The notes under the pieces are model-generated. The model made no database searches. It was not told the origin of the DNA and was given only the letters and a program-made list of their open reading frames with translations. A stretch of DNA of 37,509 nt from an uncultured bacterium. GTDB lineage: Bacteria; Actinomycetota; Actinomycetes; S36-B12; CAIYMF01. Shown here one piece after another: positions 18,313 to 37,033 of this stretch. The position numbers and the translations under genes were made by a program. The DNA lies in assembly GCA_903927265.1 (NCBI GenBank), contig CAIYMF010000208.1, positions 1 to 37,509 of the forward strand, given 5' to 3'. Position 1 is the stretch's first letter. Every line of letters starts with the position of its first letter.

Positions 18313-18528
18313 ATGACCACTTCACGTCGGCAGTTCCTCGTCGGTGCCCTCGCGCTCGGATCCGTGATTGCCGTCGGCGCCGCGGGCGCCGGTGCCGCCG
18401 AGGCGTCGGCTCCGAAGAAGCCCGTTAAGAAGCGCAACTACATCGAGAACGGCTCCTTTGAAGAGGGCCCTCTCGGAGTGCCGCAGATCGATGACTGGGT
18501 TGTTGTGACCGCCGTGGTGCCCGTATGA
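18313..18528 (+). CDS. short Tat-signal ORF carrying the first strand of a CBM-like domain
   Basis: A 71-residue product. Residues 4-9 (SRRQFL) are a twin-arginine motif, followed by a hydrophobic segment and a likely AxA cleavage site (ASA, 31-33). The mature part is only ~38 residues: a basic patch, then [26 protein letters not shown] followed by a Trp is the usual first strand of secreted carbohydrate-binding-like beta-sandwiches (CBM4/9 or DUF642 type), yet the ORF stops at 18528 before the domain is complete. The rest of such a domain appears downstream, after an intervening ubiquitin domain, in the -1 frame. The stop overlaps the next start (ATGA). It could be a separate exported peptide, the leader of a frameshift product, or the 5' part of a disrupted gene. 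Confidence 0.65.
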
Positions 18529-19112
18529 GTGGCATGCAGATCTTCGTCAAGACGCTGACGGGTAAGACGATCACCCTTGATGTCGAGTCGTCGGACTCGA
18601 TCGAGAATGTGAAGCAGAAGATCTTGGACAAGGAAGGCATCCCGGTCGCGGAGCAACAGCTCATCTTCGCGGGCCAGGTACTTCTCGACGGTAGAACGCT
18701 CGCCGACTACAACATTCAGAAGGAGTCGACCCTTCACCTGATTCGTTTGGAGCGTCAGACCGGAATCGTGACCTACGCCGAGGTGGGCCTGACCGCGCCG
18801 GAGTCGGGCGGTGGGCGTTTGGCGTCCCTTGGTCCCAACACCACCATGGGCCAGCATGTGCGCGAATTGACTGCGGGTGCGTACACCCTCGGTTTCTATG
18901 CCCAGGGTGCGCTGTCGTTCGTAGTTGAGTTCTTCAACAAGAAGGGCGTTTCGACCGCGCGCTACACGGGCAGTTTCACTGCCTTCACACTCGATCCGTT
19001 CACGCTGCCGTGCATGGCGCCTAAGGGAAGCGTCTCGGCTAACGTCACGTTCTCGACACTCGCCGACGGTGAGGCTGCTCTGATCGATGTCGTCAGCCTG
19101 ACGCGCAACTAA
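18525..19112 (+). CDS. ubiquitin-domain protein 1 (ubiquitin fused to CBM-like beta domain)
   Basis: A 195-residue protein. After Met-Ser-Gly, residues 4-75 align without gaps to eukaryotic ubiquitin 1-72; by hand count 56 of the first 70 ubiquitin positions are identical to the human protein. In ubiquitin numbering, the L8/I44/V70 patch is L8/I44/I70, H68 is kept, lysines 6, 11, 27, 29, 33 and 63 are kept, and K48 is Gln. The C-terminal RLRGG is absent: the chain reads [11 protein letters not shown] and continues into a ~115-residue beta-rich domain ([34 protein letters not shown]), whose ending matches carbohydrate-binding-like modules. No signal peptide of its own. The start overlaps the Tat ORF stop (ATGA) with no Shine-Dalgarno, so translation probably depends on coupling. 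ATG 18534 would give a start exactly at ubiquitin Met1. Confidence 0.88.
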
Positions 19113-19130: not shown

Positions 19131-19706
19131 ATGCAGATCTTCATCAAGATGTCGACCAAGGCGATCACCCTCGAAGTTGAACCGTCGGACTCGATCGACA
19201 ATGTGAAGCAGAAGATCCAGGACAAGGAAGGCATCCCGCCCGACAAGCAGGCACTGGTTTATGGCGGCAAGATCCTTGAAGATGGCAGATCTTTGTCGGA
19301 CTACGACATTGTGAAGGAAGCGACGATCGCGCTGATCACGCTGACACGTGCAACCGGTGTCGTGACGTACGCTGATGAGGCCCTGACCCCACCCATTGGC
19401 GTCGGGGCTCGGTTGGCCTCGCTGGGGGTCAACTCTTCGATGAGTCAACGGGTGGGCGCGATCAAGCCTGGCCACTACACACTCGGTTTTCAAGCATCGG
19501 GCGTGTTGACGTATGCGGTTGAGTTCTTTGGCCGACGAGGGGTGTCGACGGCCCGCTACACCGGCAGTGTCGTTTCGCTTGAACTCGCGCCTTACGCACT
19601 GAAGTGCAATGCGCCCAAAGGCACCGAATCGGCCATCGTTACCTTCGCCACCTTAAACGCCGGCGAGGCCGGACTCATCGACGTCGTCAGCCTCACTAGC
19701 GACTAG
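19131..19706 (+). CDS. ubiquitin-domain protein 2 (ubiquitin fused to CBM-like beta domain)
   Basis: A 191-residue paralogue of the preceding protein. The ubiquitin domain begins at Met1 (MQIFIK) with a one-residue deletion in the first hairpin; about 49 of 70 positions equal human ubiquitin. K48 and P38-D39 are kept here, unlike in paralogue 1, but the patch is weaker (L8 replaced, I44 is Val, H68 is Ala). There is no GlyGly: LITLTRATG leads directly into the same beta domain ([47 protein letters not shown]). It has no signal peptide and no NGSFE strand upstream. GAAAGG eight bases before ATG supports the start. It lies 18 bases after paralogue 1, so they are one operon. Its stop overlaps the stop of the convergent aminotransferase gene by four bases (CTAG). 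Confidence 0.88.
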
Positions 19707-20891: not shown

Positions 20892-22556
20892 CTACGCGCG
20901 CAGCGCTTGCAGAGTGCGCCACGCCCGGCAGGCCAACTGCAGGTTGAAGTTGACGTCGGGTTCGCCAAGTGCCAGTCCCGACACTTCGCGGATGCGCTGA
21001 AGTCGGTACTTCAGTGTGCTGCGGTGAATCGACAGGGAAGCCGCGGTTTCGTCGTAGCGGCCGCCGCACTCGAGGTATTGATGGAGGGTGAGTACGAGTT
21101 CGGCGTGACGGTGTTCGTCGTAGTCGAGGAGCGTGCCGAGCCAGTCGCGCACAAACCGCTCAACCTCGCGCGGATCCTCAGCAGCGGCGAGTAGGCGGTA
21201 CACGCCAAGTTGATCGAACACCGTGACGTTCAAAGAACGTGCGTTGCCGCGCTGCAACTGCAGTGCTAGCAGTGCTTCGCGATGCGAGTTCGGAAAGTCT
21301 TCGACTCCGCGTGTCTGACCACCAACACCGATACGACATTGGCCGCCCGCGAGTTCACGCATCACGCCCGCATGCAAGTCGTCCCAGTTGATGTCGCGGT
21401 CAGTGAGTAGCACGACGGTTCCTGCTCGTGACACCAACAGCGTTCCGAGGTTGAGATCACGTGCTGCTCGTCGCACCGAGGTGAAGAACTGGTCGTCGTC
21501 GCGCACTCGGCCGCGACCTTCAAACACGACAACTCGGTGTGGTGCCGTGAGGTCACGTTGGAATGCTTCACCGCGCGGCAGGACGGTCTCGGCGCTGGCA
21601 CCCGACAGCAAGTCTTCGACGAGGTCGCGGCGAATGCGCACCTCGGTGTCGGCGACACTGCGCTGGCGCGCGAGTTCCATCGACAAAATGGTGGCGCCGT
21701 ATTCAAGAGCTGCGAGGTCTTCATCGCGTGCGTGATCGTCGGGATCGAGCAATGCGAGAACGGCAACGGAGTCTGGTCGGGGAGAGGCAGCAACCATGAC
21801 GCGCCCTGACTCGCGTAGAGGACGTCCTTCGCGCAGTAGCCGACGTAGCAATTGCTCGCGCCGCGCTGGCGGATCTTTCGCGTACACCGCTGGTTGCCCC
21901 GGCCCGGCCCACGCACGCAGATTTCCGTAGCGGTCTTCGATGATGGTGGGCAATCCGGTCACTTCATGTACCGCTCGAGCGAGGCTTTCCATGCCTTCGC
22001 CGGAAACCGCTGCGCGCGTCAAGCGGTGGTGAATGTCGATGCGCTGCTGCAGCGCTTCGACAGTGTGTTCTAGTTGCTGATTCACCGAGGCCAATTCGTT
22101 GGCGGCGGCGCGCTCAGCCTGGTGCAGTCGACTGTTGCGAACCGCCGAGCCGATCTGCTGCGAAAGTACACGTAGCAGGAAGTGCTCATCGTTTTCGAGT
22201 TCGCGGGCAGAGGCGACCACCATGTGGCCAGATGAAGCGGAGGCGCTCCCGAGAGCGTAGGCCCAGCCCCATTCCTCGCCTGGCAATTCAAGTGAGCCAC
22301 CGCCGATTGCTACATCATCAAGTGCGGGAGGTTGGGCGTCACCCTTCTCGCCGGGAGTCCACTGGCGCGTCGTTCCGTCAACCGTGCGAACACCCACGAG
22401 CCGACATGACGCGAACGAGGGGGCCGCGCTGGCACCCATGCGCAAGATCTGCTGCTCATCCGTGCTTTCGGTCATGAGCATTGCGAGGACGAGCAATGCG
22501 TTGAGGCGGGAGAGGTGGTCGCGGGCTGCGAGGCCGACCGCCATCTCCGTGCTCAT
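20892..22556 (-). CDS. PucR-family transcriptional regulator with GAF-like sensor
   Basis: About 554 residues. The N-terminal ~170 residues look like a GAF-type sensor, followed by a coiled-coil signalling helix (ANELASVNQQLEHTVEALQQR, cited from its core QQLEHTVEALQQR). A middle region has the weakly conserved GGDEF-like domain of CdaR/PucR proteins. The C-terminus is the PucR helix-turn-helix: YDETAASLSIHRSTLKYRL, then RIREVSGL. The start chosen is ATG 22554-22556, which overlaps the MEDS gene stop (ATGA); longer in-frame versions would run through that gene. PucR-type regulators control catabolic genes on sensing pathway metabolites. Coupling to a MEDS-domain protein suggests a two-part sensor. 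Confidence 0.83.
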   Translation of the reverse strand: MSTEMAVGLAARDHLSRLNALLVLAMLMTESTDEQQILRMGASAAPSFASCRLVGVRTVDGTTRQWTPGEKGDAQPPALDDVAIGGGSLELPGEEWGWAYALGSASASSGHMVVASARELENDEHFLLRVLSQQIGSAVRNSRLHQAERAAANELASVNQQLEHTVEALQQRIDIHHRLTRAAVSGEGMESLARAVHEVTGLPTIIEDRYGNLRAWAGPGQPAVYAKDPPARREQLLRRLLREGRPLRESGRVMVAASPRPDSVAVLALLDPDDHARDEDLAALEYGATILSMELARQRSVADTEVRIRRDLVEDLLSGASAETVLPRGEAFQRDLTAPHRVVVFEGRGRVRDDDQFFTSVRRAARDLNLGTLLVSRAGTVVLLTDRDINWDDLHAGVMRELAGGQCRIGVGGQTRGVEDFPNSHREALLALQLQRGNARSLNVTVFDQLGVYRLLAAAEDPREVERFVRDWLGTLLDYDEHRHAELVLTLHQYLECGGRYDETAASLSIHRSTLKYRLQRIREVSGLALGEPDVNFNLQLACRAWRTLQALRA

Positions 22557-23179
22557 GTGGGTTGTGACCCGGCGTACGACGCGAGGAACTCGTCGGGCTC
22601 GAGGTAGTACGGGTTGTCGAGGAGGCTGCCGCACAGGAGCAGCTTGGGATGAGTGCGGAGCAGGTCAACCACGACGCGACCGTCGAAGAGGTCGAGGTCG
22701 TAGAGGCACAGAATCACTTGGGGGTACTGGGGCAAGAAGCGGTTGAGTTCGGATTCGTACTCGACGAGACCTTCAACACCGGGAAGTTGACGCAGTGCCC
22801 ACGTCATCTCGCCGAGACTGCGAGCGAAGGTGTAATCACCGCTATCGAGGGGGACGCTGATCGCGGTGTTCCAGAAGTCGATCATCGAGTCTTTGGAGAA
22901 GGCACCGTCGCGCAGATAGGTCTCGGTAGAACGCATGACGTCGACCTGGTGGCTGTCGTGGGCGTGCCCGGTGGCTTCGTCAGATCCCAATTCGGCCCAG
23001 AGGTCGTCGGGCTCGACCTGATCGAGAACGGCAATGCACTTGTCGCCTGCGTCAATACCGGCACGAAGGTAGGGCAGCAGCACCTCGTCGCGCCCGACCG
23101 AACCCCGGTAGAACGCGCAGATGTGGTCGCCCGGGGACATGCTCAGTCCGGGCAGTCCGAGTTCGATCGTTGCAGTCAC
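22553..23179 (-). CDS. MEDS-domain sensory protein
   Basis: A 208-residue protein made almost wholly of one MEDS (DcmR-like sensory) domain: PGDHICAFYRGSVGRDEVLLP at the start (cited core GDHICAFY), LRAGIDAGDKCIAV, TYLRDGAFSKDSMIDFW, YTFARSLGEMTWALR, LVEYESELNRF and VILCLYDLDLFDG. MEDS domains are predicted small-molecule-sensing modules with a RecA/KaiC-like core lacking ATPase motifs, often in anti-sigma networks or next to DNA-binding domains. The GTG start at 23179 has AGGAGG just upstream. The stop overlaps the PucR-type start, so both are made together. Confidence 0.82.
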   Translation of the reverse strand: MTATIELGLPGLSMSPGDHICAFYRGSVGRDEVLLPYLRAGIDAGDKCIAVLDQVEPDDLWAELGSDEATGHAHDSHQVDVMRSTETYLRDGAFSKDSMIDFWNTAISVPLDSGDYTFARSLGEMTWALRQLPGVEGLVEYESELNRFLPQYPQVILCLYDLDLFDGRVVVDLLRTHPKLLLCGSLLDNPYYLEPDEFLASYAGSQPT

Positions 23180-23279: not shown

Positions 23280-23333
23280 GGATGAAAAACCGAGATCGGG
23301 TTCGCCGCTAGGCTCTCCTCGGAGGTGGCTGAC

Positions 23334-24308
23334 GTGCGCGCAGCGGTGTATTCAGACAAAGGTCCGGCCCATGAAGTGCTCTCGGTAGTGGAGCGACCCG
23401 ACCCTGAGCCGGGGCCAGGTGAGGTGCGAGTACGCGTGAGTGTGTCAGGCGTCAACCCCACCGACTGGAAGTCGCGTACGTCTCCCGCGCCAATGGTGGG
23501 CCCGGTGCAGATTCCGAATCAAGATGGTGCCGGGGTCATTGATGCAGTCGGTGACGATGTCGACCCTGCCCGCATTGGTGAGAGAGTCTGGGTTTTCCAT
23601 GCCGCCCGCGAGCGGGTGAGTGGCACGGCCGCGACCTACTCGGTGGTGCCTGCCGATCAGGCAGTTTCGTTGCCGGCAGACGTCAGCTTCGATCAGGGCG
23701 CGGGTCTGGGCATTCCGTTCATCACGGCGCACGGATGTCTGTTCTCCGATGGACCGATCGCTGGTCGCACCGTTCTCATCGCCGGTGGTGCTGGCGCGGT
23801 CGGTCACGCGGCGATTCAACTTGCGTTGCGGGCAGGGGCGACCGTGATCACCACGGTGAGTTCAGAGGCGAAGGCTGACCTCGCGCGCACCGCCGGCGCA
23901 ACGCACATCGTGAACTATCGCGATGCTGACGTCGCCGAGCAGATTCGCGCGATCGCACCGAGCGGCGTTGATCGCATCATTGAGTTGGCGCTGAATACCA
24001 ACCTCGATCTTGATCTCGCGGTGATTGCTCCGCACGGTGTGATCGTCACGTACGCGACGGAAATTGCTGGTGACCCGGTCATTCCGGTGCGGTCACTGAT
24101 GTGGCCGAACATCACGCTGAGGTTCGCGCTTGTCTACAACTTCACCGATCAGCAGATTGCCGACGCGGTGGCCGACATCAGTGACGCGCTCGCTCAAGGA
24201 CAGTTGGTTGCACTACCCGACCACCACTTCACTCTCGACCAGATTGCCGATGCGCATGACGCGGTCGAAGCGAATGCCATCGGAAAAGTGCTCGTCGACA
24301 TCGGTTGA
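23334..24308 (+). CDS. zinc-free MDR oxidoreductase, NADPH:quinone-reductase type
   Basis: About 324 residues of the medium-chain dehydrogenase/reductase fold. The N-terminal catalytic domain has PGPGEVRVRVSVSGVNPTDWK and QDGAGVIDAVGDDV. The cofactor domain has the AGGAGAVGHAAIQLA nucleotide loop and ATVITTVSSEAKADLA, suggesting NADPH. The structural and catalytic zinc cysteines are absent, as in quinone reductases and zeta-crystallin relatives. GTG 23334 is preferred because GGAGG (23321-23325) lies eight bases before it; GTG 23325, three codons longer, overlaps that site. It diverges from the MEDS/PucR pair, which may regulate it. The natural substrate is unknown. Confidence 0.86.
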   Translation: MRAAVYSDKGPAHEVLSVVERPDPEPGPGEVRVRVSVSGVNPTDWKSRTSPAPMVGPVQIPNQDGAGVIDAVGDDVDPARIGERVWVFHAARERVSGTAATYSVVPADQAVSLPADVSFDQGAGLGIPFITAHGCLFSDGPIAGRTVLIAGGAGAVGHAAIQLALRAGATVITTVSSEAKADLARTAGATHIVNYRDADVAEQIRAIAPSGVDRIIELALNTNLDLDLAVIAPHGVIVTYATEIAGDPVIPVRSLMWPNITLRFALVYNFTDQQIADAVADISDALAQGQLVALPDHHFTLDQIADAHDAVEANAIGKVLVDIG

Positions 24309-24336: not shown

Positions 24337-25764
24337 CTAGATTCCGTACTTGTCCCAGTGCTCACCGAAGAGTTCTTGCTCGGTGAACGTCTTGGGTGCA
24401 ATGGTGCGCGACACCCACGTGAGGTTGAGGAAGTGCTTGGCGTTGACGTTCTCTGTGGTGATGTTGCCACCCCATGAACCACAACTCAGGCTCAGCGTGA
24501 ATGGCAAGCCATTGCGAGCACTTCCGGCGCCCTCATTGAGGTTCTGGTTCACGAGAACGCGCGCCGTGCGCGTTCCGAATGCAATCGCATCGACATGCGC
24601 ATCAACGCTGGTGTGGATTCCGCAGGTATGACCAAGACCCTGGTAGGCAGTGATGTCGTTAATGATCTGCACGGCCTCGTTGATGTCGCTGCCGTAGCGG
24701 TACACGGCCAGAACGACCGAGAGCTTCTCGCCTGAGAACGGGTGCTCGGGGCCAGCGCCGTCTTCTTCAACCATGATGAACGACGTGCCCGCGGGAATGT
24801 CGATGCCTGCGAGTTCGGCGATGGTGGCGGCCGGCTTGGCAATGACGTCAAGGCTAGGAATGTGTCCGCCGTCGGGCCACATAGCCTTCTGCAACTTCGC
24901 CTTCTCTTCGGCGTTACACAGGTAGCCACCGGATGCCTGTAGGCGACCAAGGAGGTCGTCGTACACCGCGTCCGCGATGACCAGTGAGTTGTCGGCGAGG
25001 CAACTGGTTGCGAGGTCGAACGTCTTGCCAGCGACGATCATCGCTGCGGCATCGTCGAGGTCGCCGGTCTCATCAATGACATGCACTGAGTTACCGACAC
25101 CGACACCGTAGGCGGGGGTGCCCGAGCTGTAAGCCGCCTTCACCATCGCGGCGCCACCGGTGGCGACGACGACGTCAGCCTGCTTCATGAGCTCGCGCGT
25201 CTTGTCGATCGACGGCGAGGTAAGGCTGATGATGAGGTCTTCGGGGGCACCGACCTGAGCGCAGGCCGCGCGCATCAGTTCGACCGACATCTCGCTGGTC
25301 TTCTTGGTGCGGGGGTGCGGTGCCACGACGATCGCGTTGCGACCCTTGAGCGCCATGAGCGCCTTCATGGGCGGAGTTGCGTCGGGGCCGGTGGTGGGAA
25401 TGAGTGCGGCGACGACGCCGACGGGCTTGGCGATCTTCACCAGGCCGCGTGCGGGGTCTTCCTCAACGATGCCCACGGTGCGCATGTCGCGCATGTCGGC
25501 GAGCAGGCCGTTCACCCGGCGGCCGATCTTGGTGAGCTTGTCGGCGTAGGTGCCGAAGCCACCTTCGTCGACGGCGAGTTGGGCGAGCGCCTCAGCGTTG
25601 TCCTTACGGACGATGGCCCAACCCACGGCGGTGACGAGGGCGTCAACCTGAGCCTGATCCCAGTCGGCGATTGCCTCTTGAGCGGCCCGGGCGCGTGCGA
25701 CGATGGCGCGAACCTCGGCGGCGGGGTCGGGAGCGGATGTGTCAGTGGGGGAGTCAGTGGCCAT
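24337..25764 (-). CDS. CoA-acylating aldehyde dehydrogenase (sulfoacetaldehyde dehydrogenase/SauS-like)
   Basis: About 475 residues, related to the CoA-acylating aldehyde dehydrogenases (SauS, EutE/PduP, the AdhE N-domain). Visible motifs are KPVGVVAALIPTT, ALKGRNAIVVAPHPR, GGAAMVKAAYSSGTPAYGVG, the catalytic cysteine in KTFDLATSCLADNS, and the family ending SLSCGSWGGNITTENV followed by KHFLNLTWVS. These enzymes oxidise an aldehyde with NAD(P)+ to an acyl-CoA. SauS makes sulfoacetyl-CoA from sulfoacetaldehyde, a molecule chemically close to CoM. The start ATG 25762-25764 is chosen because in-frame sequence further upstream crosses the divergent promoter region. Its position back-to-back with the 2-KPCC homologue suggests it handles an aldehyde of the CoM pathway; the exact substrate is inference. 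Confidence 0.8.
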   Translation of the reverse strand: MATDSPTDTSAPDPAAEVRAIVARARAAQEAIADWDQAQVDALVTAVGWAIVRKDNAEALAQLAVDEGGFGTYADKLTKIGRRVNGLLADMRDMRTVGIVEEDPARGLVKIAKPVGVVAALIPTTGPDATPPMKALMALKGRNAIVVAPHPRTKKTSEMSVELMRAACAQVGAPEDLIISLTSPSIDKTRELMKQADVVVATGGAAMVKAAYSSGTPAYGVGVGNSVHVIDETGDLDDAAAMIVAGKTFDLATSCLADNSLVIADAVYDDLLGRLQASGGYLCNAEEKAKLQKAMWPDGGHIPSLDVIAKPAATIAELAGIDIPAGTSFIMVEEDGAGPEHPFSGEKLSVVLAVYRYGSDINEAVQIINDITAYQGLGHTCGIHTSVDAHVDAIAFGTRTARVLVNQNLNEGAGSARNGLPFTLSLSCGSWGGNITTENVNAKHFLNLTWVSRTIAPKTFTEQELFGEHWDKYGI

Positions 25765-27466: not shown

Positions 27467-28990
27467 TTAGTTCGCAGCAAGGTTGGCGGCGCGTTCACGC
27501 AGTTGCGTGAGCGCGCCGTTGCCGTGCGTGGAGCGATCAGTGAACCACTCACGTTGCGCAGCAACGATCGGGCGTAGTGATGCGATCTCATCGCGCACGA
27601 GGTCGGGCCCGCAGCCGCCCGGCTCGGTGCGGGATGACACGAGGGTCACCGGATCGAGAATGGCTGCGAGATCGAGTGTGCGAGCGGCATCGGGGAGTGA
27701 ACTGCCAGTGAGTTCGACGCAGGAGGCTTCGAGAGTGTTGATTCTGATGGGCTGTGCGGTGCGCAGCGATTCGGCAACAGTGTGGCCGACGATGCGGTAA
27801 GCCGTGCGGTAGTCAAGGCCAGCAACCAGCACCAACTCGTCGGCGATGTCGGTTGAAGCGGTCTGCTGATCGTGAGCGCTACGCGCCATCGCTTCAGCGT
27901 TGATCTGCAGTGTGCGCACGACCACCGTTGCCAGGCGCACAAGTCGCGTGGCGAGTGTGAGAGACGCCGTGACTTCACCGTACGAGTGCAGCCAGTTATC
28001 GGTGGATGCCGAAGGCGTACGCGCGGTAGCGGCAATTCCAGCAAGGCGACCAATCATCGTGCTTGCGCCAGCGCGAATGACCGAAAGCGCATAGGGGTTG
28101 CGCTTCTGTGGCATCAGTACTGACGCGCGGCACAGTGAGGCGTCAACGGTGACCAGCCCGAAACCTGCGCTCGCGAAAATCTGAAGATCTTCGGCCAGTC
28201 GATCGGCCGTGATGACCGACTGAGTGGCGGCGGCGGTGATCTCGATCAAACCATCGATCGTCCACATGGTGTCGCGGGTATTGCGGCCGACGGCAGCGAA
28301 ACCCAAGAGTTCGGCAAGGCGTGCACGATCGAGGTGCATGCGAGTGCCGGCGACTCCACCCGAGCCAGCAGGGGAAATATCGATCCATTCATGCGCTGCG
28401 CGAATCCGTGGAAGATGTCGAGCGGACTCTTCGGCGAAACTCGCGAGGTAGTGGCCGAAGGTCGAAGGCTGCGCCAGTTGCAGATAGGTCGTGTCAGCCC
28501 ACACGGTGTCGGCGAGTTCAATGGCGCGATCGCCCAGCGCGTCGGAGAAGTCGGCGACGGCATCGGCGAGGTCAACGAGTAGGTCTCGCACGGCGAGGCG
28601 AAATGCGATGCGGCCCGCCTCGCGACGAGTGCGACCGAGGTGAACCCATCCCGCAGTGTCGCCGATGCGTCGAGTGAGTTCCTTCTCGCGACTGTTGTAG
28701 GCATCGCCAAGAACGACGTCGTACGGAAAGTCGTCGACAGACACCGCGCCCATCGTCAGCAATTCACCGAGAAGTTCGCGAGCCACGTCGTCACTCACCA
28801 AGCCCGCTTCATGAAGCGCGATGACATGCGCGAGGTCAGCGACGAGCAGGCCGTCATGCAGCATAGGAGCATCGGCAAGTTCAAGTGCGTAGCCAGCGGC
28901 CACTAACTCGGGTGCTGGTCCGGCAGAGATGCGGCCATCGGCACCGAGGTAGCCCTCAGGGGTGGCGGGCTGGTCGGAAGGAGTGCTCAC
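27467..28990 (-). CDS. aspartase/fumarase-superfamily lyase of CoM biosynthesis (ArgH-like, XcbC/XcbD type)
   Basis: A 507-residue member of the aspartase/fumarase superfamily closest in look to argininosuccinate lyase: YLQLAQPSTFGHYL in the position of ArgH THLQRAQP (the usual His replaced by Tyr), and the signature loop SVLMPQKRNPYALSV (about 291-305). The N-terminal opening GYLGADGRISAGPAPE is unlike true ArgH. No arginine gene is nearby, whereas ComA and an XcbE-like enzyme share the operon. In Xanthobacter, two superfamily members, XcbC1 and XcbD1, work in CoM synthesis, and XcbC1 eliminates phosphate from phosphosulfolactate. Which of the two this protein matches cannot be settled by eye. 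The GTG start overlaps the preceding stop (GTGA). It is the last gene of the operon. Confidence 0.78.
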   Translation of the reverse strand: MSTPSDQPATPEGYLGADGRISAGPAPELVAAGYALELADAPMLHDGLLVADLAHVIALHEAGLVSDDVARELLGELLTMGAVSVDDFPYDVVLGDAYNSREKELTRRIGDTAGWVHLGRTRREAGRIAFRLAVRDLLVDLADAVADFSDALGDRAIELADTVWADTTYLQLAQPSTFGHYLASFAEESARHLPRIRAAHEWIDISPAGSGGVAGTRMHLDRARLAELLGFAAVGRNTRDTMWTIDGLIEITAAATQSVITADRLAEDLQIFASAGFGLVTVDASLCRASVLMPQKRNPYALSVIRAGASTMIGRLAGIAATARTPSASTDNWLHSYGEVTASLTLATRLVRLATVVVRTLQINAEAMARSAHDQQTASTDIADELVLVAGLDYRTAYRIVGHTVAESLRTAQPIRINTLEASCVELTGSSLPDAARTLDLAAILDPVTLVSSRTEPGGCGPDLVRDEIASLRPIVAAQREWFTDRSTHGNGALTQLRERAANLAAN

Positions 28991-29964
28991 AAGTCACCAT
29001 CCTGCACGAACAGTGTCGGGGCTCCACCGGAGACAAGGAATACGACCGGACCGGTGACATCGCCATTACCCGCCGCAAAGGCGAGGGCCGCCATCGCCTT
29101 CGCGCAGAAGGGGGGATCGAGGAAGAGCGCTTCGGTGCGTGCCACGAGCGCAGCCGCATCTCGTCCTTCAGTCGACGCGTAGCCATAGCCGGGTCCGATC
29201 CAGCCGTCGACGATGTTGACCTGCGTGGCGAGAGGCGCCGGTGTTCCGATCAATTCGGCGGTACCGGTGGCAAGGGTGAGTACGCGTTCGCGACATTCGT
29301 CGGCGGTGCGGCTGACCGTGACGCCGATGACTTCCGGAAGAATGCCTGCGGCCACAGCGGCCACGAGCCCTGCCTGAGTACCGCACGAACCCGTCGCCAT
29401 CCATAACGTCGGATTCTCAAGGCCAACTGTGCTGGTTTGATCACGCAGTTCGAGTGCTGCCGCCACGTAACCAATGGCGCCGCGTGACGTGGCTCCGCCC
29501 CGTGGCAGTACGACGGGGTTGCGTCCGGCCGCCCGAAGTTCCTGCGCGGTGACTTCGATGAGGGCATCGACCGTCGCACGCGATGGGTCACCGGTGTATT
29601 TGACCGTGGTGCCGATCGTGGAGTGCAGCAAGAGATTGCCTTGCACTGTCGTTGGTGCGTCGCCGTAGAAGCACACCACCGAGTCGAGGCCGCAGCGTCG
29701 CGCAGCGAGGGCGGCCAGCATCGACCAGTTGGACTGGGGTCCTGAACCGGTGACGAGGACGTCGCACTCACGCGCGAGTGCGTCGCCCAGCAGAAACTCG
29801 AGCGGCCGGACCTTGTTGCCGCCGAGGCCGATTCCGGTCAGATCGTCGCGCTTGAACCAGATCTCGACGCCCAACTCTTCTGACAGTCGCGGCGCGGCGA
29901 TCAGCGGTGTGGGAAGCGTGCCAAGACACTCGCGAGCAATAGCTGAGAGATCAGGATCAGCCAT
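28987..29964 (-). CDS. D-cysteine desulfhydrase-like PLP enzyme of CoM biosynthesis (XcbE type)
   Basis: The 325-residue fold-type II PLP enzyme belongs to the D-cysteine desulfhydrase/ACC deaminase family: TPLIAAPRLSEELGVEIWFKRDD (cited core EIWFKRDDLTG), the PLP lysine K51 in GLGGNKVRPLEFLL, GSGPQSNWS, and the phosphate-binding stretch ATGSCGTQAG. In Xanthobacter the homologue XcbE1 is part of CoM synthesis and is thought to act at the sulfur-introducing step. The ATG start at 29962-29964 lies within the end of the upstream lyase gene (8-base overlap); a longer frame exists but would extend deeper into that gene. Its position between the two lyases supports the CoM assignment. Confidence 0.8.
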   Translation of the reverse strand: MADPDLSAIARECLGTLPTPLIAAPRLSEELGVEIWFKRDDLTGIGLGGNKVRPLEFLLGDALARECDVLVTGSGPQSNWSMLAALAARRCGLDSVVCFYGDAPTTVQGNLLLHSTIGTTVKYTGDPSRATVDALIEVTAQELRAAGRNPVVLPRGGATSRGAIGYVAAALELRDQTSTVGLENPTLWMATGSCGTQAGLVAAVAAGILPEVIGVTVSRTADECRERVLTLATGTAELIGTPAPLATQVNIVDGWIGPGYGYASTEGRDAAALVARTEALFLDPPFCAKAMAALAFAAGNGDVTGPVVFLVSGGAPTLFVQDGDL

Positions 29965-31303
29965 CGAGTCGGCCGAGGGTTGCGTCAATGAATCGGGGAA
30001 TGGAACCAAGAGCGCGCGTGGGATCGAGTAACTCGTCGAGTTCGTCATCGGCAATCTGACTGAGTCGATCGTCGGCACGAAGTGCGGTGCGCAGATCGTC
30101 ACCGCGTTCGCGTCCGGCGAGTGATGCTTCGTACACGATGCGATGAGCGGTGTGCTTGCCGACGCGATCGGACAGCGCGCGCATGACTGGTTCGCTCAGT
30201 ACGTAACCGCGTTGCGCATCAAGGTTCGCCCGCATGCGCTCGGTATCAACCTCGAGGCCGATGAGAATACGTTCGACCGCAGCGGTACTGACGGCGCTGT
30301 AGTGGCAGGTTTCGGGAAGGATCACCCACTCGGTCTTCCAGGCACGACCGTCACGTTCATGCCCGTGAATCATGCCTTCAATGGCCAGGTCAGAATTCAC
30401 ACGTACGAGTCGAGCGAGAGTGCTGACGTGCTCTGCCCACTCGGGGTTGCGCTTATGCGGCATGGTGATACTGCCGACGGTTCCGACCGACAATGGCTCT
30501 CGCAGCTCGCCGATCTCGGTGCGCTGCAGTTCGTACACCTCGTCGCCGATCTTGGCGACGGTCGCCGTCACCATCGCCATCAGTGACATGAACTCGGCGA
30601 AACCGTCGCGTGCCGTGAGCCACGGAAGACTGGGAACTGCCAGATCGAGTCGACGTGCGAACGCTTCGATCATTGGCTCGGCGCTGTCGCCCCAGAATTC
30701 CATCGAGCCAAGGCCACCAGCGAGCTGAACCATTTCGCGGCGCGGTCGTGTTTCAGCGATGCGCTGAAGATGCCGGTCAATCTCTTCCGCCCACACCGCG
30801 GCTTTGAAGCCGAACGTGATCGGAAGTCCTGGCTGCCCATGCGTGCGCCCGCACATCAAAGTGTCGCGGTGTGTGCGCGCAAGGTGCAACGCCGCGGTAC
30901 GTGCGGCAGTGAGATTGCCCGTCACGATGTCGCTGATCGTGCGCATGATGAGCGCAGCCCACGTGTCGGAGAGATCTTGCACCGTCGCTCCGTAGTAGAT
31001 CCACTCGCGAGCGTCTTCGGGAAGTCGTTGTTCAAGAATTCGGATGAGACCGAGCGTGGAGTGTCCCGTTGCACGCGTGAGTTCACCGACCTCAACAGGA
31101 TCAGGAAGCCAGTCGGTGATGGCGAGTCGAATTGACTGCGCAGCTTCAGCAGGAACCAGTCCGACCTCAGCCTGAGCCTCAGCAAGAGTGGCAAGGATGT
31201 CGAGCCACGCGCGCAGACGTGCTTCATCGCTGAAGAGATTGCGGGTTTCGTCAGTGCTCCAGAGGTGCCCGTACACCGCTGACCCGGTCAGGTGCGCGCT
31301 CAT
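29957..31303 (-). CDS. aspartase/fumarase-superfamily lyase of CoM biosynthesis (PurB/PcaB-like, XcbC/XcbD type)
   Basis: A 448-residue superfamily member of the PurB/PcaB-like branch: REWIYYGATVQDLSDTW, CGRTHGQPGLPITFG (the conserved His-containing motif), VQLAGGLGSMEFWG, and the signature SITMPHKRNPEWAEHV (about 277-292). Unlike the ArgH-like partner it keeps the canonical THGQP histidine. True PurB works in purine synthesis, but the operon context points to the bacterial CoM pathway, where one such lyase eliminates phosphate from phosphosulfolactate to give sulfoacrylate and the other acts on a later intermediate. The assignment to either step is open. The start ATG (31301-31303) overlaps the preceding stop (ATGA). 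Confidence 0.78.
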   Translation of the reverse strand: MSAHLTGSAVYGHLWSTDETRNLFSDEARLRAWLDILATLAEAQAEVGLVPAEAAQSIRLAITDWLPDPVEVGELTRATGHSTLGLIRILEQRLPEDAREWIYYGATVQDLSDTWAALIMRTISDIVTGNLTAARTAALHLARTHRDTLMCGRTHGQPGLPITFGFKAAVWAEEIDRHLQRIAETRPRREMVQLAGGLGSMEFWGDSAEPMIEAFARRLDLAVPSLPWLTARDGFAEFMSLMAMVTATVAKIGDEVYELQRTEIGELREPLSVGTVGSITMPHKRNPEWAEHVSTLARLVRVNSDLAIEGMIHGHERDGRAWKTEWVILPETCHYSAVSTAAVERILIGLEVDTERMRANLDAQRGYVLSEPVMRALSDRVGKHTAHRIVYEASLAGRERGDDLRTALRADDRLSQIADDELDELLDPTRALGSIPRFIDATLGRLDG

Positions 31304-32229
31304 GGTGTGAGTGCGGAACCGATCTGCTTGGGCTCAGGCAGTGGGCCGACTCCGGTGATCATGCGCAGGGCGAGTCGAATCTCATCAAGGTTCGAACCCC
31401 AGGGAACGATGGCGGTGTTTCCTCGTACTTCAACTCCGCGCTCGAGCAGGCAGCACTTGGTGAGAACGAGTGCTTCCTTACCAAGTTCTTCGGCCCGGTG
31501 GTTGGGGCAGAAGTCGACTTGCTCAGGCTCGTCACCATAGAAGTGCCGGTGGAATTGCACCGAACGCTCGCAACCGATCAAAGTCCAGTCGAGACGCTCG
31601 GGCGGACGCGTGTCGAGGAACGTCACGTCAGCGGGAAGGTCAACACCCGAGCCGCGGCACGGAAGCAGGTATCCGTTCGCAGGGTTATTCTTCGCCATCT
31701 CACGAATGTCGACCGCGTCAAGAACCAAACGAATGGGCGGGAGGTCTTCATCGAATCCGACTGCCTGCTTGGCGAGTTCGAACAGCTTCGCGGGCTCGGG
31801 TGGAACAACTTCAGTGACGATGACCGTGACCGGTTCGGGTTGCCAGATGACGTTGATGTGTTCGTACTTGCCCTGCACGGCGTAGGCGTCAGTGTTGGGT
31901 TGCGCGTGAGCGAGGGCGCTGAATGCGAGCTGCGTGGGATTGCCGACGTCGGTGGTGGGATCGACGATGAACACGATGCGGTCAGGCCCGGCCAGCACGC
32001 GTGCCTCGGTGACAGGCGAAAAAAGCGGCTCGAACGATTCCTTGCGCACTTCGATGAGGGCGCGGTCATCGCCGTTGCTCAGCAGCAGCCACTCAGTGCG
32101 GCGGTAGACCTCGCGGCCCAGAATGTAGTCGAGGATCGCCGACTCATCGTTGAGGTCGATGTCGGCCTCCTGTGCCGACAGCCCACGGTACGGACGAGTC
32201 ATGGTGTTGGGCGCGGGAAGCGGAATCAT
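31300..32229 (-). CDS. uncharacterised protein embedded in the CoM-biosynthesis operon
   Basis: A 309-residue soluble protein I do not recognise. It has no signal peptide or membrane segment. The N-terminal two thirds alternate strands and helices (VLAGPDRIVFIVDPTTDVGNP, INVIWQPEPVTVIVTEVV). The C-terminal third holds clustered potential metal or thiol residues: LLPCRGSG, IGCERSVQFHRHFYGD, DFCPNHRAEE and LTKCCLLERG. The start ATG 32229 lies 12 bases after comA with AGGA at a good distance; its end overlaps the next lyase start (ATGA). Tight packing between comA and the lyases implies a role in the same pathway. The published bacterial route includes a decarboxylation and a reduction, either of which could need such a protein; this is inference. 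Confidence 0.8.
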   Translation of the reverse strand: MIPLPAPNTMTRPYRGLSAQEADIDLNDESAILDYILGREVYRRTEWLLLSNGDDRALIEVRKESFEPLFSPVTEARVLAGPDRIVFIVDPTTDVGNPTQLAFSALAHAQPNTDAYAVQGKYEHINVIWQPEPVTVIVTEVVPPEPAKLFELAKQAVGFDEDLPPIRLVLDAVDIREMAKNNPANGYLLPCRGSGVDLPADVTFLDTRPPERLDWTLIGCERSVQFHRHFYGDEPEQVDFCPNHRAEELGKEALVLTKCCLLERGVEVRGNTAIVPWGSNLDEIRLALRMITGVGPLPEPKQIGSALTP

Positions 32230-32241
32230 GACGTCATCCTG

Positions 32242-33033
32242 TCAGTGGTGGGATGCCTGCACTGGGTTGATAGCCGAGATCTGTAATGCGGTGTCGGCGC
32301 GAAGGCCGAGGCGAAGAGTCTCCAGGGGAATTACGTCATCGGTGGCGATGTTCCCGAGATTCACATCCGGACCCACCGTGGCAATGAACCAGGTTTGCTG
32401 CGCCTTGGAAGGTGCCTCGAAGATGACGCGCTCGAGCGGGATGCGCGCGCCGATTGCGTCGATGAGATCGTCGCGCACGGAGCCATTTCCGTGATAGATG
32501 CCGACCGTGCCACTTTCGCGTCCTTCGGTGACCAGCCACTGAGCTCCGGCCTCGAGGTCGGATTCCATCTCGGCGATCCACTCGTCGGCGATAACAGGAA
32601 CCGACTGGTCTTTCGAGCCAACCTCGGCGGCCACGGTGAAGTCGGTGCTGAATTGACGCACGAGCGCAGCCTTACTTTCGCGATCAAGCAGGCCTAGTCC
32701 GTTGGAGACTTCGACGACTGAAACCCCGCACGACAGCGCCCAGTCACGAAGTTCGGCCACCTTGCCCTGCGCGGCACAGACCTCAAGCAGTGTTCCGCCC
32801 AGACTCACCTCAACGCCGGCCGCCCGGTAGGCCGCAACGCGTTCGCTGAAGTGTGGGTCGACGTAGCCGATACCCCAACCCACCTTGACGATGTCGATCA
32901 GATCGGCGCACTGGGCGATCAAGGCGTGAGTCGCCGGCACCGTGAGGGCCTTGTCGAGAACGTGGGTGAGCCCGCGTGCTCGGGGCTTGGAGACGCGAGA
33001 CGGCAGGGTGAGAAATGTCGGCCCGTTGGGCAT
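32242..33033 (-). CDS. comA: phosphosulfolactate synthase (ComA/XcbB)
   Basis: The 263-residue TIM-barrel protein is a ComA family member: PRARGLTHVLDKAL (about 17-30), DIVKVGWGIGYV (47-58), VEVSLGGTLLEV, GVSVVEVSNGLG, VAAEVGSKD and VIFEAPSKAQQTWFI. It adds sulfite to phosphoenolpyruvate to give (R)-phosphosulfolactate, the committed first step of CoM synthesis in methanogens and in Xanthobacter (XcbB1). GGAGGAG upstream supports ATG 33033. It is the first gene of the five-gene minus-strand operon comA - 309 aa - lyase - PLP enzyme - lyase. ComA homologues also occur in some plants and bacilli for other sulfonates, but the neighbours make CoM the best reading. Confidence 0.92.
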   Translation of the reverse strand: MPNGPTFLTLPSRVSKPRARGLTHVLDKALTVPATHALIAQCADLIDIVKVGWGIGYVDPHFSERVAAYRAAGVEVSLGGTLLEVCAAQGKVAELRDWALSCGVSVVEVSNGLGLLDRESKAALVRQFSTDFTVAAEVGSKDQSVPVIADEWIAEMESDLEAGAQWLVTEGRESGTVGIYHGNGSVRDDLIDAIGARIPLERVIFEAPSKAQQTWFIATVGPDVNLGNIATDDVIPLETLRLGLRADTALQISAINPVQASHH

Positions 33034-33227: not shown

Positions 33228-34595
33228 GTGACTCGGAACTTGGTCGTGATCGGCGGTGGAGCCGCGGGGATGTCGGCTGCCTCGGCCGCCCGCCGCACCG
33301 ACCCAGGTATGTCGATCACGGTCGTGGAGGCGGGTCCGTTCGCCTCCTATGGCGTATGTGGTTTGCCGTACTTCATCTCAGGAGTCATTCCGGAGGCGAA
33401 TTCGCTGATAGCTCTGCCTCCTGAGGAATTCCGCGACAAGCGGCGAATCGATCTACGCCTCGAGGCCACCGTCGATCGGGTCGATCCCGAAGCCCAGGTG
33501 GTCTACTCCGGTTCCGAGGCGTATCCCTTCGACGTTCTGGTGATGGCGTCGGGCGCGGCTCCCATCGTTCCGCCCCTTGCCGGTGTCGACGACCCACGTG
33601 TGGTGACCATTAGGCGTCTTGATGAGGCCATTGCCCTGCGCGACCGTCTCAGTGGGGTCAAGCGCGCGGTGGTGGTCGGCGCCGGTTACGTAGGTTTGGA
33701 AATGGCCGAAGCCCTCGTTGAGCAAGGCATTGAGGTGACGGTGGTCGACCGGCTGCCGCGGGTGATGTCAACAGTCGATGTCGACATCGCTGACATCGTC
33801 GAGCGTGAGGTGCGTGAGCACTGCGAACTGCGCCTCGAATCTGCGTTGGTGGCGTTGCATCCGCGCGCTGATGCGGTGCACGTTGAACTTGATTCCGGAT
33901 CACTTGATGTTGATCTGGTCGTGCTCGCTCTCGGCGTACGGCCTTCAACCGATCTCCTCAAGGATTTCGAACTTCCCGCACTGCCCAATGGTGCGCTCCT
34001 CGTCGACGATCACATGCGGACTCAGCATCCGAATGTGTTGGCCGCGGGGGATTGCATTGCCTTGCACCATCGCGTTCTCAATGGGCCGGCCTTCGTGCCA
34101 CTCGGCCCGGCCGCGAATAAGACGGGGCGAGTGGCGGGCACTGTCGCTGCCGGCGGCGACGCCGCATTTGAAGGAATCGTCGGAACCGCGGTCGTCAAGG
34201 TGTTCGACCTCACGGTGGCGCACACGGGCCTCACGCTGGCCGATGCGCAGGCTGCGGGCTTCGAAGCTGTGGCAACTGACATCACTGCCAAGTCGCGTGC
34301 GAAGTACTACCCAGGTGCCGAGCCTCTGCGCGTGCGCCTGGTTCATCAGGCCGACGGGAAACTGCTGGGCGGTCAGCTCGTCGGTCGTGACGGAGCAGCG
34401 CAACGAGTCGACGTCATCGCAGCGGCCTTGCACACCGGTCTTGGTATCGACGACCTTGCAGCCTTCGATTTGGCATACGCGCCACCGTTCTCACCTGTGT
34501 ATGACCCGCTCACTCAGGCCGCTCAGGCCGCTCAGTTTGCAATGGCAAAGGCATCATTGGGCCGCATGGCCCCACGCGATGGAGGTGCACGCTGA
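33228..34595 (+). CDS. CoA-disulfide-reductase-like flavoprotein
   Basis: A ~455-residue FAD/NAD(P)H oxidoreductase: FAD loop NLVVIGGGAAGMSAA, single active-site cysteine C44 in SYGVCGLPYFISG, NAD(P)H loop AVVVGAGYVGLEMAEAL, VLAAGDCIAL, and the dimerisation domain with TGLTLADAQAAGFE. One Cys in the CGLPY motif is typical of CoA-disulfide reductases and related NADH oxidase/persulfide reductases. The GTG start at 33228 is chosen for its GAGGAG and because it begins the FAD motif; 46 further in-frame codons upstream look non-coding. It leads the plus-strand operon with the CoM-type dehydrogenases, so reduction of CoM disulfide or a CoM mixed disulfide is a reasonable guess. The stop shares one base with the next start. 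Confidence 0.83.
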   Translation: MTRNLVVIGGGAAGMSAASAARRTDPGMSITVVEAGPFASYGVCGLPYFISGVIPEANSLIALPPEEFRDKRRIDLRLEATVDRVDPEAQVVYSGSEAYPFDVLVMASGAAPIVPPLAGVDDPRVVTIRRLDEAIALRDRLSGVKRAVVVGAGYVGLEMAEALVEQGIEVTVVDRLPRVMSTVDVDIADIVEREVREHCELRLESALVALHPRADAVHVELDSGSLDVDLVVLALGVRPSTDLLKDFELPALPNGALLVDDHMRTQHPNVLAAGDCIALHHRVLNGPAFVPLGPAANKTGRVAGTVAAGGDAAFEGIVGTAVVKVFDLTVAHTGLTLADAQAAGFEAVATDITAKSRAKYYPGAEPLRVRLVHQADGKLLGGQLVGRDGAAQRVDVIAAALHTGLGIDDLAAFDLAYAPPFSPVYDPLTQAAQAAQFAMAKASLGRMAPRDGGAR

Positions 34596-35314
34596 TGGGT
34601 GTCGCAGTGGTTACTGGTGCGGCCGGCGGTATCGGAAGTGCCACGGTGCGTCGATTGCATGAAGACGGAATGACGGTGATCGCACTCGATCTCAATGGTG
34701 AGGCAGCGGCCGAGCTGTCACCACATTCCTACGCACTCGATGTGTCGAATGCTGAGCAGGTCGAACTAGTGATGGCTTCGATACTTGCGTCCTGGCCGCG
34801 GGTTGACGTGCTAGTAAACAACGCCGGCATCACCGGTTCGGCTGCGGCTACGACGGTGCACGAGACGCCCGTTGAAGAGTTCGATCGAGTCATGGCAGTT
34901 AACGTGCGAGGCCCATTCCTCTGCACTCGTGCGCTGATTCCTTCGATGCTGGAAGCCGGTCGTGGACACATCATCACGATTGCCTCCATCGCCGGCCTTG
35001 TTGCGTTTCCCGGTCGGTGTGCCTACACGACGTCGAAGGGTGCAGCGCTTCAGTTTGCGCGCTCTGTCGCGATCGACTACGGAGGCCGTGGCATTCGCTC
35101 AAACGCCGTCTGCCCGGGCATGGTCGAGACGCCAATGACTCAATGGCGACTTGACCAGCCAGAACTCCGCGCTCAGATTGAGGCGCAGATTCCTATGGGC
35201 AGGGTGGCGCAACCTGATGAGATCGCCGATGCCGTGTCGGTGTTGGCGTCAGGGCGTCTCGCATATGCAAACGGCTCACCGTTGATCATCGACGGTGGCT
35301 GGTCTTCTAGGTGA
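34595..35314 (+). CDS. xecD: hydroxyalkyl-CoM dehydrogenase, R-HPCDH-like SDR
   Basis: The 239-residue short-chain dehydrogenase matches 2-(R)-hydroxypropyl-CoM dehydrogenase over most of its length: VTGAAGGIG, VLVNNAGITG, EFDRVMAVNVRG, LVAFPGRCAYTTSKGA, NAVCPGMVETPMTQWRLDQP. The catalytic residues are S131, Y144 and K148. R141 and R185 sit at a constant 11-residue offset from R152 and R196, the residues that hold the CoM sulfonate in Xanthobacter R-HPCDH. The enzyme oxidises a CoM-thioether secondary alcohol to the ketone with NAD+, feeding 2-KPCC. ATG at 34595, the last base of the preceding stop codon (TGATG). A strong functional link to CoM is therefore visible in the sequence itself. Confidence 0.86.
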   Translation: MGVAVVTGAAGGIGSATVRRLHEDGMTVIALDLNGEAAAELSPHSYALDVSNAEQVELVMASILASWPRVDVLVNNAGITGSAAATTVHETPVEEFDRVMAVNVRGPFLCTRALIPSMLEAGRGHIITIASIAGLVAFPGRCAYTTSKGAALQFARSVAIDYGGRGIRSNAVCPGMVETPMTQWRLDQPELRAQIEAQIPMGRVAQPDEIADAVSVLASGRLAYANGSPLIIDGGWSSR

Positions 35315-35336
35315 CATCCAATCGAAGGGAAATCCA

Positions 35337-36110
35337 ATGGCAGGCAGGCTCGAAGGCAAGGTCGCGATCATCACGGGCGCGGGCTCAGGAATCGGACGCG
35401 CATCGGCTGAACTATTCGCGCGCGAGGGCGCTGCGGTAGGCGTCCTTGACGTTCGCGCTGAGGCCGCTCAGGAAGTAGCCGACGGGATCAATGCTGCTGG
35501 TGGGCGAGCGCTGGGTCTTGGCGCAGACGTGACCATTGACGCGCAGGTACGCGAGGCGACCGACGCCGTCATTGCAGCATTCGGCGATGTCGCGGTGCTG
35601 TACAACAACGCAGGCATCGGCAGTTCCGGTGCCGTTGATGTGGCGACTGAAGACGACTGGGACCGCTGCTTCGATATCAACGCCAAGGGCACCTTCCTGT
35701 GCTCGCGCGCCGTCGTACCGTCGATGCTGGCTGCTGGTCGCGGTTCGATCATCAACCAGGGATCAGTTGCGGCTCTTGTGGGTGTCGCCAACTTCGCTGC
35801 GTACTGCGCGGCCAAGGGTGCTGTGGTTGCACTGACTCGCTCGATGTCACTTGACCTTGCACCGCGCGGTATTCGTGTTAATGCGATTGCGCCCGGAACG
35901 ATCTACACGCCGTTGATGGAGCCGATGCTCATCGCGCGCGGTGGTGGCGATCTGCAGAAGGGACTCGAGATGACCTTGACCAAGTACCCCATCGGCCGCC
36001 TCGGCGACCCGATCGACATCGCGAACGCGGCGCTATTCCTTGCCAGTGACGAGGCAGCTTTCGTCACCGGTTCCGTGCTCACCGCCGATGGCGGCATGAC
36101 CTCTCAGTAA
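35337..36110 (+). CDS. SDR family dehydrogenase, S-HPCDH-like
   Basis: A 257-residue short-chain dehydrogenase: IITGAGSGIGRAS, LYNNAGIGSSG, QGSVAALVGVANFAAYCAAKGA, NAIAPGTIYTP, TKYPIGRLGDP and AAFVTGSVLTADGGM. Catalytic S143, Y156 and K160 have the same numbers as in Xanthobacter 2-(S)-hydroxypropyl-CoM dehydrogenase, and the segment around KYPIGR and AAFVTG is close to it. Of the two S-HPCDH sulfonate contacts (R211, K214), the Lys is kept (K216) but the Arg is Thr213, so the substrate may not be identical. ATG 35337 has GAAGGGA eight bases upstream and is preferred to an in-frame start at 35295 inside the preceding gene. Confidence 0.82.
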   Translation: MAGRLEGKVAIITGAGSGIGRASAELFAREGAAVGVLDVRAEAAQEVADGINAAGGRALGLGADVTIDAQVREATDAVIAAFGDVAVLYNNAGIGSSGAVDVATEDDWDRCFDINAKGTFLCSRAVVPSMLAAGRGSIINQGSVAALVGVANFAAYCAAKGAVVALTRSMSLDLAPRGIRVNAIAPGTIYTPLMEPMLIARGGGDLQKGLEMTLTKYPIGRLGDPIDIANAALFLASDEAAFVTGSVLTADGGMTSQ

Positions 36111-36118
36111 GGAGAGCG

Positions 36119-37033
36119 ATGATTTTCCTCGATCCAGACAAGCGCGTCGATCTGGCGACTGCGGCTTCTCACGTAGGAGATGGAGCCCTGTTGGCTCTGG
36201 GTGGGGGATTGTCGTCACGCCTTCCCATGGCACTCGTGCGTGAACTCGTGCGGCAAGGCCGCACGGGTCTGCACGTGGTGGGTTCGGCACACAGCATGGA
36301 TGTTGATTTGCTCGTCGCGGCCGGTGCGCTGTCGATCTGCGAAGAAAGTTACGTGGGCTTTGAACAGGATCTCGGTCTTGCTCCGGCCTACCGACGTGCG
36401 GCTGAGAGCGGCACCATCACGCTGCGCGAAAGTTGTTGCGTCACGATTCTGACGCAGTTGCGTGCGGCCGAGATGGGTCTGCCGTTCCTGCCCGTGCGTG
36501 GCATCAAGGGAACGGACATGCGACGGCTGCATCCCGAATACGCCGAGACGACCTGCCCGTTCACGGGTGAGGTTCTCGTCGCGGTTCCGCCGCTTGTTCC
36601 GGATGTCGCATTGATTCACGCTCCACTCGGTGACCTGCACGGCAATCTGTACCTCGACAAGCCGTACGTTCTTGATGAGCGATTCGCTGGCGCATCGCGT
36701 GCAGTGATCGCGACTGTCGATCGCATCGTGTCGACTGACGAACTCGTCGAGCACGGCATCACCATTCCCGGTCACTACGTGCAGGCGGTGGCCGAGGTGC
36801 CGTTCGGTGCACACCCGGCATCGAGTTACCCCAACTACGCCTACGACCGCGATCACATGGGCGTGTACGTCAAGGCTGCATCCAAGCCTGAGTCGGCTGC
36901 GCAGTACATCCAAGAGTGGGTGATGTTGCCCGATGGCGAGGACGGCTACCGCGCCAAACTGGGCGACGAATCACTTCAGCGCCTCACGACATGGTCTGAG
37001 TCGACCGAAATGTGGAAGGGGCTCTTCGCATGA
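36119..37033 (+). CDS. CoA transferase family I, subunit A
   Basis: A 304-residue family I CoA-transferase alpha subunit of the GctA/IpdA sort: VGDGALLALGGGLSSRLPMALVREL (cited core LALGGGLSSRLPM), GLHVVGSAHSMDVDLLVAAG, GFEQDLGLAPAYRRA, PFLPVRGIKGTD, PDVALIHAPLGDLHGNLYL and AVIATVDRIV. It partners the next gene. AAGGAGA precedes the ATG. Such enzymes move CoA between carboxylic acids. Similar two-subunit CoA transferases accompany CoM-dependent ethene/vinyl chloride gene clusters in actinobacteria, where a CoM-linked acid is thought to be activated. Acetoacetate from a 2-KPCC reaction is another possible acceptor. The stop overlaps the subunit B start (ATGA). Confidence 0.85.
   Translation: MIFLDPDKRVDLATAASHVGDGALLALGGGLSSRLPMALVRELVRQGRTGLHVVGSAHSMDVDLLVAAGALSICEESYVGFEQDLGLAPAYRRAAESGTITLRESCCVTILTQLRAAEMGLPFLPVRGIKGTDMRRLHPEYAETTCPFTGEVLVAVPPLVPDVALIHAPLGDLHGNLYLDKPYVLDERFAGASRAVIATVDRIVSTDELVEHGITIPGHYVQAVAEVPFGAHPASSYPNYAYDRDHMGVYVKAASKPESAAQYIQEWVMLPDGEDGYRAKLGDESLQRLTTWSESTEMWKGLFA

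Follow-up and report, generated by a model that had tools for sequence, protein, structure and literature searches.

The five minus-strand open reading frames at positions 27467-33033 of the window (the whole 37,509-nucleotide stretch of DNA that was analyzed, a contig of an uncultured actinobacterium) raise the question of whether this organism makes coenzyme M (CoM), and what the cofactor would serve. Among bacteria, CoM has been described chiefly in alkene degraders and in some methanotrophs. The original prediction recognized in this block ComA/XcbB, two aspartase/fumarase-superfamily lyases and a D-cysteine-desulfhydrase-like enzyme, and equated them with the CoM enzyme set of Xanthobacter autotrophicus Py2. 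All five frames are intact and follow each other along the direction of transcription as xcbB(comA)-xcbA-xcbD-xcbE-xcbC, with gaps of 12 bp or short overlaps between them (Table 1). The ATG of xcbB is preceded by AGGAG; the start of xcbE at 30102 is over-called, and homologues indicate the ATG at 29964, which gives a protein of 325 aa. The PLP-lysine motif GGNK of this protein is conserved.

Table 1. Genes of the CoM operon and its surroundings in the window (G001, sister genome; NBB4, Mycolicibacterium chubuense NBB4; JS614, Nocardioides JS614; percentages are protein identities).
Feature	Position	Strand	Evidence
PucR/CdaR-type regulator	20892..22634	-	PF13556, PF17853
MEDS-domain (hydrocarbon-sensing) regulator	22553..23179	-	PF14417, 140 bits
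Quinone-oxidoreductase-like MDR protein	23325..24308	+	94% in G001, same place
SauS-like CoA-acylating aldehyde dehydrogenase, ~475 aa (ORF to 25947)	24337..25764	-	NF047625, 541.8 bits (cut-off 600)
2-KPCC (2-ketopropyl-CoM carboxylase/oxidoreductase) homologue, 526 aa	25883..27463	+	572 bits to PDB 1MO9
xcbC, ArgH-like lyase, 507 aa	27467..28990	-	NF052535, 400.9 bits (argH 251); signature loop RASVLMPQKRNP
xcbE, PLP-dependent D-cysteine-desulfhydrase/cysteate-lyase-like enzyme, 325 aa	28987..29964	-	NF052537, 297.8 bits, best hit
xcbD, aspartase/fumarase-superfamily enzyme, 448 aa	29957..31303	-	NF052536, 660.7 bits; signature loop VGSITMPHKRNP
xcbA family (DUF7714, PF24830), 309 aa	31300..32229	-	NF052538, 403.4 bits
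xcbB, phosphosulfolactate synthase (ComA), 263 aa	32242..33033	-	PF02679, 257 bits; NCBIfam arch_ComA, 218 bits
CoA-disulfide-reductase-like FAD enzyme (ORF from 33090)	33228..34595	+	TIGR03385, 399.9 bits; same place in JS614/NBB4
SDR 1, candidate hydroxyalkyl-CoM dehydrogenase	34595..35314	+	G001 orthologue 66% to NBB4 cluster SDR
SDR 2, candidate hydroxyalkyl-CoM dehydrogenase	35295..36110	+	G001 orthologue 70% to NBB4 cluster SDR
CoA-transferase alpha	36119..37033	+	PF01144, 78 bits; G001 orthologue 62% to NBB4
CoA-transferase beta, truncated at contig end	37030..37509	+	Translation; remainder on contig C82 of the same genome

The assignment to CoM synthesis is borne out by the best hits in NCBIfam and Pfam and by gene order, all five genes lying in conserved synteny across dozens of genomes, and the equation with Py2 extends to each of its five xcb genes. 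XcbD and the XcbA-family protein exceed their curated NCBIfam cut-offs (660.7 bits against 600, and 403.4 against 150). XcbC (400.9 bits, cut-off 575), XcbE (297.8, cut-off 450) and ComA (218, cut-off 280) fall below theirs, yet in each case the top model is the Xcb or ComA one, and the shortfall of ComA against an archaeal equivalog cut-off may be expectable for a bacterial type. Purifying selection acts on the five genes (dN/dS 0.03-0.10 in comparison with the sister genome), so the set is not a product of chance. The view that 27467-33033 holds a bacterial operon for CoM biosynthesis, complete and homologous to xcbA-E of Py2, is thus supported.

The 309-aa gene had been regarded as an extra one, but it belongs to the XcbA family (NF052538, 403 bits) and is the canonical fifth gene of the set: on the Py2 plasmid, its homologue Xaut_5051 (43-44% identity) directly precedes xcbB, and in mycobacteria a gene of this family has been termed “xcbF1” (PMC8727900). 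In alignments of 7 to 54 sequences (49-54 in the largest), C191, C220, C241, C259 and C260 as well as H124 and H227 are invariant, which suggests a metal site or a redox role. The AlphaFold2 model is confident (pLDDT 93, pTM 0.88). No sequence relatives were found in the PDB, and a fold search against the PDB gave no match; because the TM-scores normalized by query length were only ~0.2 or less, the fold gives no indication of the function. The combination of a confidently predicted fold and a missing PDB match turns the step of XcbA in CoM synthesis into a structural question. In the XcbA tree, the protein of the window falls into a starred clade together with the other members of its own family and with metagenomic contigs labelled as freshwater, one of them as Candidatus Nanopelagicales.

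The CoM genes occupy the central part of an etn/xec-type epoxyalkane cluster of about 20 kb. The earlier description of their setting holds in part: heat-shock and housekeeping genes are indeed near, but the operon does not stand isolated beside them, since it sits inside a catabolic cluster. Directly adjacent is the 2-KPCC homologue, which is 65% identical to the JS614 and NBB4 proteins and whose PDB match, 1MO9, is 2-oxopropyl-CoM reductase. It retains equivalents of Cys82, Cys87, Arg56, Arg365, Met140, Phe501 and His506; the redox cysteines and the CoM-binding arginines are thus kept, and Phe501/His506 replace the His-Glu pair that is otherwise usual. The G001 orthologue of the SauS-like dehydrogenase is 72% identical to an aldehyde dehydrogenase at the same place on NBB4 pMYCCH.01. 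Whether the MDR protein belongs to the cluster is uncertain; it is missing from two clusters of the same family (L114 and L027). At the other end, the last 141 bases of the window are the first 141 of contig C82 (an exact overlap), which continues with the rest of CoA-transferase beta, an acyl-CoA synthetase and EtnE, an epoxyalkane:CoM transferase (EaCoMT), and the same continuity up to EtnE is found on an uninterrupted 374-kb contig of G001. At most loci examined, the xcb genes likewise lie beside an EaCoMT, 2-KPCC or CoA-transferase.

Both this genome and G001 carry, besides the actinobacterial EtnE (on C82 73% identical to that of NBB4), an XecA-type EaCoMT at a separate locus. The latter lies on C113 near ahpC/ahpF-like genes, is 76% identical to the Py2 protein and groups in a quick tree with sequences from Kineosporia, Pseudonocardia and methanotrophs. 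The zinc ligands H218, C220 and C341 are invariant in both types.

The bacterial CoM pathway was reportedly solved in a PNAS paper of 2022. Transferred from the Xanthobacter work, XcbB would add sulfite to PEP, XcbC would form sulfoacrylate by elimination of phosphate, and CoM would be completed by XcbD, XcbE and XcbA; these steps in Py2, and the ethene/epoxide pathway, are taken from the literature (PMC8727900, PMC11507031). Small epoxides would then be opened by CoM through EtnE, and probably also through the XecA-type transferase at the separate locus, and the hydroxyalkyl-CoM would be oxidized by the SDRs. The 2-KPCC homologue, the SauS-like acylating dehydrogenase, the CoA-transferase, the acyl-CoA synthetase and the disulfide reductase might together free CoM and pass the carbon into CoA thioesters, while the MEDS and PucR regulators could sense the substrate. 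Gene content and order, catalytic residues, chromosomal insertion and purifying selection are direct observations, whereas we infer every enzyme activity, the sequence of the late steps, and both the nature of the substrate (ethylene oxide or another short epoxide) and its source.

A rival reading, which takes XcbC and XcbD for the housekeeping enzymes ArgH and PurB in a block that merely resembles a CoM operon, could draw on the common superfamily of these proteins, to which the argH and purB models respond with 251 and 253 bits. However, the dedicated Xcb models outscore them by far, ComA, XcbA and XcbE adjoin the lyases, and the lyases are in synteny with epoxide clusters. Moreover, the genome has four Lyase_1 proteins, among them a distinct ArgH on C222 (570.8 bits) and a distinct PurB on C59 (411.5 bits). 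XcbC is 26% identical to the former and 50-54% to actinobacterial XcbC, and XcbD is 22% identical to the latter and 54-64% to actinobacterial XcbD, so that the two lyases group with XcbC and XcbD, as originally predicted, and ArgH and PurB stand apart; the housekeeping reading has a negligible probability and is rejected. It is also very improbable that CoM is made here for a use other than epoxide conversion, e.g., as a general thiol. Relatives do have a divergent xcb cluster that lacks epoxide genes (L117, L118, L064, L096), but the operon of the window has 2-KPCC, SDRs and EtnE on its flanks, i.e., enzymes or homologues of enzymes that have CoM conjugates as substrates. The operon is very probably the CoM-making module of a chromosomal cluster with which freshwater (Nanopelagicales-related) actinobacteria would catabolize or detoxify epoxyalkanes in a CoM-dependent way.

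Less clear-cut is the origin of the epoxide. The cluster contains no linked alkene monooxygenase. Searches of the genome used protein families and single proteins as queries and, among oxygenases, covered SDIMOs and CuMMOs. An EtnC query had a sole match (29% identity), a phenol hydroxylase on C296, which is the one SDIMO of the genome. Growth on an alkene that is epoxidized by an unlinked oxygenase of the cell's own, either this SDIMO or a P450, could build on the presence of its hydroxylase, reductase and YHS-domain alpha subunit, and phenol-hydroxylase-type SDIMOs are established to oxidize some alkenes. However, sequence identifies the C296 enzyme as a phenol hydroxylase, with 649 bits to PhN (PDB 3U52), and no SDIMO was found in G001, which retains the entire cluster; we consider growth of this kind unlikely. 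Tentatively, and with considerable doubt, one may instead picture a pelagic freshwater actinobacterium without an epoxide-forming oxygenase of its own, which might partly live on, or shield itself from, epoxides of other organisms (e.g., ethylene oxide from the co-oxidation of ethylene by methanotrophs), by means of a fixed chromosomal CoM pathway and two kinds of EaCoMT.

Among known systems, the cluster resembles most closely those of NBB4 (pMYCCH.01 and pMYCCH.02) and JS614 (pNOCA01), with roughly 50-72% protein identity and the pair of MEDS and PucR regulators in common; around the CoM operon, gene order is identical to that of pMYCCH.01 and near-identical to that of pNOCA01. In contrast to the cluster of the window, both are plasmid-borne, and monooxygenase genes adjoin the cluster in NBB4. 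The xcbD annotated on pMYCCH.01 (L002:17748-18737) encodes only 329 aa, lacks the N-terminal part of its homologues and is separated by a gap from the gene that follows; a frameshift or a wrong start may be the cause. Py2 (pXAUT01 xcbA-E, xec) shares the full set of five xcb genes as well as EaCoMT, 2-KPCC and SDRs, but identity is 32-44% for xcbA, xcbC and xcbD, gene order differs, and its hydroxypropyl-CoM dehydrogenases are of the propylene type, unlike those here. The epoxyethane clusters of Methylohalobius crimeensis and other methanotrophs likewise combine CoM and epoxide genes without a dedicated alkene monooxygenase and have been interpreted as detoxification systems (PMC11507031). They differ in EtnE, which is of the actinobacterial type in our cluster, and in that methanotrophs form the epoxide with pMMO, whereas no CuMMO was seen in the family of the window, where the control genomes gave no match either.

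The claim of a chromosomal-looking set is confirmed by comparison with related genomes. In G001, the full cluster is flanked by dnaK-grpE-dnaJ-clpB-aminotransferase on one side and by SDR-pyrE-dedA-trmH-fba-type genes on the other; in the relatives G004 and G005, the same housekeeping genes lie close together and the cluster is absent, i.e., the site between clpB/aminotransferase and pyrE is empty. GC content is 62% in both cluster and flanks, neither GC content nor GC3 marks the cluster as foreign, and those cluster genes that were compared with G001 have dN/dS values of 0.02-0.10. No convincing tRNA or repeats were found at the insertion edges. Given the housekeeping flanks, the empty sites in relatives, the equal GC content and the low dN/dS, the cluster is therefore a resident, selected chromosomal insertion and not a plasmid. 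In G012 and G013, it lies in other flanks, together with an XecA-type EaCoMT. Such a chromosomal location is not unique: the cluster is also present on the complete chromosome of Amycolatopsis sp. 2-2 (L048) and on a 1.68-Mb scaffold of Nocardioides marmoriginsengisoli (L028).

Of the 17 genomes of the family, 8 encode an XcbA-family protein, as do 20 of the 166 genomes of the order, and no paper on CoM in this lineage was found in the library searched. New is thus the CoM/epoxide cluster in this lineage; the cluster type and chromosomal examples are already known. The locus is of moderate interest for its fixed chromosomal setting, its two EaCoMT types and its missing epoxide-forming enzyme, and a chromosomal cluster of this kind, kept under selection in uncultured actinobacteria of lakes, extends the range of organisms that may remove ethylene oxide and related epoxides.

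Several further observations concern CoM clusters elsewhere. A divergent bacterial class (L117:2150-14817, L118:9174-19258, L064:9201-20853, L096:9011-16874 and L119:3327-6881) has xcb proteins that are ~36-56% identical to those of the window and the reference clusters; the XcbA proteins of L064, L096, L118 and L119 form a starred clade of their own, and no EaCoMT, 2-KPCC or CoA-transferase lies nearby. No paper on this class was found. Neighbors in L117 and L064 include nitrile hydratase alpha/beta, AllG/AllH oxamate-carbamoyltransferase-like, AIR-synthase/HypE-like and CoADR-like reductase genes, joined in L117 by a NicO transporter and OsmC, and CoM may serve nitrile or carbamoyl chemistry here. 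Two Chloroflexota loci (L078, L092) contain xcbA-E, and the flanks that were retrieved hold neither an EaCoMT nor a 2-KPCC gene, possibly a further use of CoM outside epoxide conversion. Near-identical XcbA/EaCoMT clusters (L080, L081, L084, L090, L097) were found in a sponge symbiont (Porisulfidus), in gammaproteobacterial metagenome-assembled genomes and in a “Nitrospira” bin, whose copy probably reflects either mis-binning of the contig or a recent transfer. Within the window, but apart from the cluster, two tandem plus-strand genes (18525-19112 and 19131-19706) each encode a strikingly ubiquitin-like N-terminal domain (PF00240, 77.5 bits in the second) followed by an unassigned C-terminal domain, here on a bacterial chromosome; G001 retains one match to this pair, with 56% identity.
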